Assembly: GCA_029907475.1 (NCBI GenBank)
Contig: JARYLU010000010.1
Coordinates: 1 to 64,000 of the forward strand
Direction of reading: 5' to 3'
DNA: 64,000 nt
DNA from: Bacillota bacterium
Lineage (GTDB): Bacteria; Bacillota; DSM-12270; Thermacetogeniales; Thermacetogeniaceae
The position numbers and the translations under genes are program-made. The notes under the pieces were generated by a model. That model worked only from the letters and a program-made list of their open reading frames with translations. It was not told where the DNA came from and made no database searches. Shown here piece after piece: positions 21,813-55,478 of the stretch; position 1 is the stretch's first letter; the number at the start of each line of letters is the position of its first letter.

Positions 21813-21995
21813 CTATGTTCCATTCCTTCAAATTCAGGCCTTCCCCCGGTTGTTCGGACTCACCTGCTTCAGGGTCCAGACTCCGGCCCCGGCCGCTCCC
21901 CCGCAAGGCGAAACCAAAGCGAAACCCCGGAGCCATAAGAAGAAGGCCTGCATATAGTTTCCTTTCGTAACTGCCTTGAAAAATATGATCCGGTC

Positions 21996-22082
21996 ATCCT
22001 TGCGCTCGCTCCCGGACTCCGGTCGGTTGCCAGGCAAGCACTTCCACTCGCTCCTGATTCCGCTCCCAGCACTCACTGCTGC
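21996..22082 (-). repeat. 87-bp dispersed repeat, copy A
   Basis: These 87 bases recur without a mismatch at 37654-37740 in the same orientation. The repeat contains short self-complementary parts (minus strand TTGCC-T-GGCAA and CCGGA-G-TCCGG), so an RNA or DNA structure is possible. It lies between yedF and mscS with no gene of its own. No terminal inverted repeats, target duplication or transposase were seen. Confidence 0.9.
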
Positions 22083-22126
22083 ATTTTCATCCTTCCGGTG
22101 GTGCCGCATGAGCGGCATAAGGTCTA
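22083..22126 (-). repeat. hairpin repeat abutting the yedF stop codon
   Basis: On the minus strand the yedF stop TAG begins TAGACCTTATGCCGCTCATG, folding as TGCCGC-TCA-TGCGGCA. A close relative lies at 48143-48186, also starting at a TAG stop codon. No T run follows, so this is not a standard terminator. Confidence 0.6.
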
Positions 22127-37616: not shown

Positions 37617-37653
37617 TTCCACCCCTCCGCCATGAAAAATACGAATCCAGGTT

Positions 37654-37740
37654 ATCCTTGCGCTCGCTCCCGGACTCCGGTCGGTTGCCAGGCAAGCACT
37701 TCCACTCGCTCCTGATTCCGCTCCCAGCACTCACTGCTGC
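37654..37740 (-). repeat. 87-bp dispersed repeat, copy B
   Basis: Identical over 87 bases to 21996-22082. It lies within the cobalamin operon between cbiET and cbiL. Unlike copy A it is followed (towards cbiET) by about 60 bases and two adjacent hairpins. Confidence 0.9.
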
Positions 37741-37798
37741 TTCGTGAGCCAAAAAGATACAAAACAGAACCATAAGTCGCTCGCTGGTAGACTCGTCG

Positions 37799-37836
37799 GA
37801 GTATTTTCATACTCTGTTGGTGTCACTAGAAGTGAC
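37799..37836. repeat. pair of adjacent hairpins beside repeat copy B
   Basis: GAGTAT-TTTC-ATACTC (37799-37814) and GTCACT-AGA-AGTGAC (37822-37836) are perfect small stems in a row. They may be part of a longer form of the dispersed repeat, since ATGAAAAT on the minus strand is shared with the flank of copy A. Confidence 0.6.
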
Positions 37837-37855
37837 GTGAAAATCTTCCCGGCAT

Positions 37856-43334: not shown

Positions 43335-43389
43335 CAGATTGACGGATCCATCTGTCCCACCTCCCTATCGCGCGTAGGGTACCTGGTGC

Positions 43390-43630
43390 GAAGAAACAGG
43401 CAGGTCTCCTGGCTCGGGTTCCTCGCCTTCTCTACCCCTTCCCACCCTGCACTCAGCGGTGCTCGAGACAACGAAAACGGTTTTGCTGCAGCGTGAATTT
43501 GGGGGCTGCGACAAGAATCCGTTATCTTTTTGTCCAAGCTGTCACCGGGTGCAGGACAGTGGCTTTTGTAGAGAGGCTCCCCCTCACAGTGGCGGGACCG
43601 CGCCTTTTCTCCCCCGCACTCAAATAACTT
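43390..43630 (-). promoter_or_regulatory. cobalamin (B12) riboswitch
   Basis: Minus-strand landmarks of the aptamer appear in order: GCGGTCCCGCCACTGTG near 43590-43575, AGCCTCTCTAC, GCCACTG near 43560, CCGGGTG-like sequence, a loop-rich middle, GGGTGGGAAGGGG, GGCGAGGAACCC and finally the B12 box GAGCCAGGAGACCTGCCTG at about 43415-43397. A strong terminator follows at 43300-43334. Binding of adenosylcobalamin would stop transcription of cbiM-N-Q-O and the synthesis genes behind them. Exact borders are estimated. Confidence 0.93.
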
Positions 43631-43639
43631 AACCACTTC

Positions 43640-43937
43640 TTTGAATGCAACTGCTGGATAACGCGTGTGGACAAAAACGGTTTCTGATGCGCTGGATTGA
43701 GTGCGGAAGATCAGGACTTCCCTTTTCAGCCCGTGAATCGGGCCACCTGTTTCCTGTTTTAATCGAGAAACCTCAAAGAACTCGCTAGCTAGCTTATTAA
43801 TAAACCTTTATTTGTGAACCGAATTAATTCTCTCCTCACGACCCTATAAGAGTTCGGACGCCGGCCGGAACCGGGAGCACAGGGGGTTGAGCGCCGCAGG
43901 GCCGGGTGCCCCGCGCTGTACCCCTCTCCGGCGGAGC
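43640..43937. other. gap between pstA and the riboswitch
   Basis: No gene is seen; in particular there is no trace of a pstB ATPase after pstA. The riboswitch promoter should lie in the AT-richer part near 43650-43830. Confidence 0.5.
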
Positions 43938-55381: not shown

Positions 55382-55478
55382 TGGCGGGAGCGTGTGGGAA
55401 TCGAACCCACCGAAGACACTCGTCATGCCTCCCGCTGGATTTGAAGTCCAGGCGCACCACCAGGCACAATCCGCTCCC
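55382..55478 (-). tRNA. selC: tRNA-Sec (UCA)
   Basis: 97 bases with encoded CCA. The acceptor starts GGGAGCGG and ends CGCTCCCG. The anticodon arm CTGGA-CTTCAAA-TCCAG carries TCA, decoding UGA. A long variable arm follows, then the T arm GTGGG-TTCGATT-CCCAC. It lies directly before selB on the same strand, making the Sec-decoding unit selC-selB-selA compact (with selA and selB reading the same way from 59 to 55.7 kb). Confidence 0.96.

Follow-up and report, generated by a model that had tools for sequence, protein, structure and literature searches.

The 87-bp repeat that occurs twice in the 64,000-nucleotide stretch of Bacillota DNA analyzed here (the window) makes up the left half of an interspersed repeat that is palindromic and modular. 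This longer repeat is bounded by end modules X and Y, has interchangeable arms and is present or absent between relatives. The 87 bp end inside a second, nested palindrome of ~95 nt, CCNGCACTCA...TGAGTGCNGG. Among the genomes searched with it, the X-Y repeat is limited to one bacterial family, and the nested family is lodged at the tips of hairpins that belong to RNase P RNA, rRNA, riboswitches and ribosomal-protein leaders in several phyla. With a little better than even confidence, we read the modular X-Y repeat and the palindrome nested in it as non-autonomous elements that would both spread as DNA through stem-loop replacement.

Within the window, a repeat search returned 91 nt at 99% identity in the same orientation (21992-22082 and 37650-37740). 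The preliminary description, made from the window alone, had reported two non-coding, same-orientation copies identical over 87 bp, and this holds: the single mismatch (90 of 91 bases agree) falls outside the 87 bp, and homology including the flanks covers ~96-98 nt (Table 1). Both copies are intergenic with minus-strand genes on either side, copy A in the gap between a yedF-like and an mscS-like gene and copy B between cbiL and the next cobalamin gene. Copy B was also correctly said to lie in the cobalamin operon and to add a spurious frame to cbiL: a GTG at 37730, inside the repeat, extends that frame, and another GTG, with a Shine-Dalgarno-like GGAGG, is found just inside the gene.

Each window copy consists of X, the left half of a core that we term beta2 and the left end of a nested hairpin, gamma. 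Copy B extends 54 nt into gamma and then passes into a variant Y, and the truncation of gamma in copy A is judged from an intact 96-nt gamma in the same setting at L002, L004, L010 and L011; the gamma ends of both window copies were also listed among those that lack a partner end. Because the two truncated composites share only this stretch, the repeat is 87 bp long; as one half of a palindrome, it folds as a single RNA strand no better than shuffles (z 0.31 and -0.15 for the two strands). No Rfam match above the gathering score was found at copy A or B, in keeping with the earlier remark that the family was not recognized. What that description missed is the copy number, the longer composite and the origin of the last 18 bp from another element family.

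Table 1. Positions of the repeat modules and riboswitch inserts in the window, and of nested inserts at other loci
Feature	Position	Strand	Remark
Copy A, end module X, CTGCCTTGAAAAATATGATCCGGTC	21971..21995	+	left boundary common to many genomic copies with unrelated flanks
Copy A, 87 bp	21996..22082	+	base-stem arm ATCCTTGCGC..., left half of core beta2, 18 bp of nested hairpin
Copy A, truncated left end of nested gamma hairpin, CCCAGCACTCACTGCTGC	22065..22082	+	right half lost
Copy A, end module Y, hairpin GGTGCCGCATGAGCGGCATAAGGTCTA	22083..22126	+	joined directly to truncated gamma; Y occurs in other copies
Copy B, end module X	37629..37653	+	abuts cbiL ribosome-binding region
Copy B, 87 bp	37654..37740	+	
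Copy B, truncated left half of nested gamma hairpin	37723..37776	+	
Copy B, variant Y-type end, GACTCGTCGGAGTATTTTCATACTCTGTTGGTGTCACTAGAAGTGACGTGAAAATC	37786..37845	+	module also after other copies, e.g. L008
Cobalamin riboswitch (RF00174)	43382..43765	-	384 nt for a 189-position model
Cobalamin riboswitch, insert 1	43613..43707	-	CCNGCACTCA-type hairpin in loop
Cobalamin riboswitch, second insert	43446..43552	-	decayed, same family, other loop
Further insert loci of the source genome	L224:1893-1984 (G000:C21), L222:1970-2074 (G000:C9), L223:2091-2195 (G000:C17), L400, L401, L402 (G000:C2)		
Insert in S10-Clostridia ribosomal protein leader	L246:310-405, L257:271-365, L296:3351-3438		three Tissierellia/Clostridium genomes

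A 98-nt query matches 35 places in the 3.01-Mb source genome (G000) at E<=1e-3, ~20 of them over most of the query, a number that is far beyond chance, and dozens of copies that are 90-99% identical lie there between unrelated flanks. The same query matches 8 of 61 relatives, including the source genome, and all eight belong to one bacterial family, in which a full-length relative of ~275 nt is abundant (G015 has 75 pieces that match, and the complete genome G006 has 46). A genome of the same genus, G001, is collinear with window positions 20.5-39.5 kb at ~80% identity, and both sites A and B are empty in it; together with the similar copies between unrelated flanks, this bears out the recent spread that had been proposed for the repeat. 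An exact 29-mer of the repeat was not found in a genome-contig collection from which records near the window were possibly excluded. Matches in that collection at L242, L245, L250 (probably coding), L273, L293, L294 and L284 appear unrelated to the element family and were set aside.

Alignments resolve the X-Y repeat into three parts: end X (CTGCCYTGAAAAATATG) on the left, end Y on the right and, between them, a base stem (TTATCCTTGCGC...GCGCAAGGATAA) with a T-run after it on one strand. Y comprises a T-rich stretch, a hairpin such as GGTGCCGCCGGAGGCGGCATGG and then TGGTCTA. The inverted repeat of X-Y is the inner base stem only, the outer ends X and Y not being inverted copies of each other, and alternative palindromic cores (beta1, beta2 and mixtures) occupy the space between the stem halves. 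Pairing in the beta1 core is kept across G006, G015 and the source genome, with 49 consensus pairs, 10 of them showing double-sided change, and 28 of 1198 cells broken, counts that are not independent since the copies are related; the RNAalifold energy is -37.2, whereas column shuffles average -12.3. Selection on a structure, earlier offered as one reason for the complete identity of the copies, is not borne out for the 87 bp themselves, with z near 0, although the complete palindromic core of the full-length relative does retain its pairing.

At orthologous sites in G004, G011 and G015, flanks and ends are the same and cores differ. In G015 (L209), as compared with G011 (L188), the loop of CC(TCCGTA)GG became gamma, CCCAGCACTCAC...GTGAGTGCTGGG; another element, delta (CCCCGCACTCA...TGAGTGCGGG), takes the position that the tip hairpin GGCATCCATGCC holds in other copies of G015; and the comparison of G011 (L192) with G004 (L178) sets a long arm against a short arm on the same stem. 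The gamma and delta cases, like the RNase P P12 tips described below, have a palindromic target replaced by the incoming hairpin, as in a stem-loop-replacing element. No target site duplication was seen at the empty sites, which are only ~80% identical or have replaced loops, and the X-Y ends are approximate.

Gamma, delta and similar elements form the nested family. Beyond their common ends, its members are 79-105 nt long (typically 85-105), carry no gene and show inverted repeats of 10-13 bp or longer, at least 10 bp of which is perfect in nearly all copies. In 146 of 149 distinct copies, the variable base N is paired with its partner (55 A:T, 54 C:G, 30 G:C and 7 wobbles), and flank complementarity beyond CC/GG is not above that of shuffled pairings. 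A phylum scan found 32 of 398 genomes positive, with 0 for reversed-pattern controls; the highest count in the bacterial family is 54 copies, in G015, and the unrelated G286 has 59. When one variant was sought in 257 Gb, 60 stretches were returned against ~7 expected by chance by our own estimate. The nested hairpin was not found in viral contigs, and we rejected a phage or viral source.

Among 106 distinct nested elements, 48 lie wholly inside a known RNA, a small part of the genome, 2 touch one, 19 are in X-Y repeats and 37 are elsewhere, proportions that reflect loci picked by motif rather than genome-wide frequencies. Many of the last group are in repeats of other lineages, and a few are probably chance matches. 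The host RNAs are RNase P RNA, 16S and 23S rRNA, the cobalamin, c-di-AMP and FMN riboswitches and S10 leaders. In the window itself, the cobalamin riboswitch is as long as it is because it holds two inserts in different loops (Table 1), both of which are also present in the cobalamin riboswitch of G001 (L221:15620-15991). Elsewhere in the source genome, nested inserts occur in RNase P RNA, two c-di-AMP riboswitches, an FMN riboswitch and two further cobalamin riboswitches. A selenocysteine tRNA gene in the window (55386-55478, minus strand) has its normal length, without an insert.

Outside the bacterial family, RNase P RNA carries matches in Nitrospirota, Moorella mulderi, Tissierellia and Desulfurellaceae, as do c-di-AMP riboswitches in Moorella and Ammonifex and S10 leaders in Tissierellia. 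The phylum scan adds six further RNase P RNAs together with 23S rRNA and cobalamin riboswitches, as well as the 16S and 23S rRNA of G117. In E. coli numbering, the rRNA inserts fall at 16S ~70-100 and 1440-1481 and at 23S 539-554, 1866-1875 and 2789-2820, all of them hairpin tips, and 23S 539-554 is helix 25, a classical site of intervening sequences (IVS) (PMC2672173). A single rRNA operon of G117 (L387:1038-6869, G117:C1) has 16S inserts at two sites and 23S inserts at at least two, its 23S match being 3914 nt long, and a 301-nt version with the same nested-family ends lies at L387:5456-5756.

For RNase P RNA, filled and empty tips can be set side by side. Empty tips in the family read CCCAGC-AGT-GCTGGG (G013) and CCCGGC-GGT-GCCGGG (G012); the filled tip reads CCCAGC-ACTCA...TGAGT-GCTGGG in G032 and CCCCGC-ACTCA...TGAGT-GCGGGG in the source genome, G001, Moorella and Nitrospirota. 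Within the family, where full-length RNase P RNAs were found in ~18 members, only the source genome and G001 have inserts, and a class-wide survey covered the same 20 genomes. Between these two inserts the 15-bp ends are identical and the interiors no longer align. Matches of nested interiors are confined to repeats and to orthologues of a single host RNA, and no similarity of interiors was found across different host RNAs, so that movement from RNA to RNA is not directly seen. The ends are more constrained than the interiors, which speaks for recognition by some enzyme, at the DNA or the RNA level. One RNase P RNA (L365:1295-1801, G295:C3) holds an element in P12 and a second one close to the 5' part of the molecule.

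In the reading that we favor, both families would be palindromic, non-autonomous and dispersed at the DNA level. The short hairpins may take the place of a loop or tip in a palindrome that is already there, much as IS1272 does, and palindromes would therefore accumulate inside palindromes; sites at which a longer hairpin is harmless, such as intergenic repeats and peripheral RNA hairpins, would retain the inserts. The composite X-beta2-gamma would then have spread as a unit in the source genome and have been trimmed independently at A and B. Inserts in functional RNAs may be tolerated as stem extensions or, by analogy with the 23S IVS that RNase III removes, may be cut out of the transcript. 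In the stem-loop-replacing transposition of IS1272, the nearest process that has been described, palindromic targets are replaced with no target duplication (PMC5678879), and a process of this type would explain the nesting, the loop replacement and the lodging in RNA hairpins. The nested family resembles IS1272/IS1182 in palindrome targeting and in hairpin replacement, but IS1272 is a full insertion sequence (IS) with a 548-aa transposase (PMC5678879), whereas the nested elements are 79-105 nt long and have no gene.

A partner transposase, the search for which had been suggested at the outset, did not emerge, within the stretches of sequence examined, from RAYT proteins (discussed below), IS1182-type transposases or IS-sized elements. 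The IS1182-type transposases (PF13751) in these genomes are without GCACTCA ends and are absent from G015, no IS-sized element with nested-family ends occurs in 2.03 Mb of examined sequence, and no DDE transposase associated with nested ends was found. We consider it possible, at somewhat less than even confidence, that the ~95-nt hairpins of RNA tips and intergenic palindromes are one cross-phylum family, CCNGCACTCA...TGAGTGCNGG, whose ends would be kept by a dedicated enzyme and which would move or be excised like a minimal intron. If the ends are a recognition signal, one family would link rRNA IVS, oversized P12 arms of RNase P and oversized riboswitch loops, expansions of rRNA, RNase P and riboswitches that otherwise look unrelated, and would provide a concrete source for RNA expansion segments. 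Whether bacteria possess a system for RNA-hairpin excision or stem-loop replacement with these ends as its substrate would become testable, and, more practically, the elements account for a class of repeats between genes and of enlarged RNAs that mislead annotation, the false cbiL start being an example.

Several known systems share some of these features. The IVS of 23S rRNA are inserts of ~100 nt that form stems at the tips of hairpins, helix 25 among them, and are tolerated or excised (PMC8708148, PMC2672173), the excision being performed by RNase III (PMC8708148). The nested family is like them in forming stems at rRNA hairpin tips, at both 16S and 23S sites; IVS, however, have been described in rRNA, whereas the nested family has constant ends and extends to RNase P RNA, three riboswitch classes, S10 leaders and repeats between genes. 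In the open-access literature that we searched, we found no description that links IVS with the inserts in RNase P and riboswitches. Like MITEs, the elements described here are short, non-coding and present in many copies, have inverted-repeat ends (terminal inverted repeats in the case of the nested element) and show presence/absence polymorphism; unlike MITEs, they show loop replacement rather than simple insertion, and in the sequence examined no autonomous partner was found and no target duplication was seen at the ~80% identical or loop-replaced sites. The palindromic elements of Rickettsia and Wolbachia and the STRR of cyanobacterial RNase P RNA are palindromic or repeat sequences inside genes and RNA genes. 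Their sequences differ from those of the nested family, and we know of no ends shared across phyla among them.

An alternative that we consider unlikely, but that retains some weight, is that the CCNGCACTCA hairpins are a common RNA-level signal, a double-stranded motif read by a host nuclease or RNA-binding protein, selected or convergent, and are not transposons. It would account for ends that stay intact in the RNase P RNAs of the source genome and G001 while interiors diverge beyond alignment, for the lack of any interior match across host RNAs, for the same ends in different phyla and for the lack of finds in viral contigs. It sits poorly with the abundance of the element in non-genic repeats (54 in G015 and 59 in G286), with its presence or absence between orthologous repeats, with the decay of the ends in some riboswitch inserts and with its patchy occurrence, exemplified by the RNase P RNA of 2 of ~18 family members. 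An RNA processing signal, by analogy with RNase III-excised intervening sequences, could coexist with DNA mobility.

REP/BIME sequences, which are associated with RAYT proteins, are intergenic palindromic mosaics in many copies, and the RAYT gene is usually flanked by the repeat. The X-Y repeat is likewise an intergenic, palindromic, many-copy mosaic, but its units are larger and modular, and the presence of RAYT does not track it. Single-copy Y1_Tnp proteins of 234-278 aa do occur in six genomes (G000, G001, G002, G004, G011 and G015); yet G005 and G006 have repeats and only IS200-type Y1 matches, three RAYT-like proteins occur in G007, which lacks the repeat, and no Y1 locus is flanked by any module. 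Mobilization of a REP/BIME-like X-Y repeat by RAYT (TnpA-REP, Y1 transposase) is, in our judgment, improbable. RAYT-like Y1 proteins such as L159 (G000:C12) and L154 (G015:C27) are single-copy and lie without flanking X-Y-type repeats.

We give just as little credence to the X-Y repeat as a conserved cis- or trans-acting RNA, a regulatory hairpin or terminator that does not move. Copies in the source genome are intergenic, with 3 apparent overlaps in 60, one of which is the spurious frame of copy B, and their orientation to genes, whose positions came from a simple hexamer-based gene call, is unbiased (20 versus 16 in tandem gaps, 8 convergent and 7 divergent). Intergenic placement, unbiased orientation and empty orthologous sites amount to the behavior of a mobile element and not of a strand-specific RNA signal. 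The internal modules swap freely and the 87 bp fold no better than shuffles, which also tell against a conserved RNA, although the core pairing kept across genera and the T-run after the base stem on one strand speak for it. A local duplication confined to two copies, which the preliminary description had named as the outcome that would undo a wider family, or gene conversion between these two alone, draws on the 90 of 91 bases common to A and B and is refuted by at least 35 places in the genome, by copies in seven other genomes and by the empty sites A and B in G001.

Related structures occur in other lineages. In G295, a genome from another family, a Y-type hairpin, CTGTTGGTGCC...GGCATGGGGTCTGCCC, carries a nested element at its tip (L398:1674-1778, G295:C4), suggesting that Y modules may reach beyond the bacterial family of the X-Y repeat. 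L358 and L394 (Moorella-like) and L371-L386 (G286) have large palindromic intergenic repeats of their own with the same nested hairpin ends.
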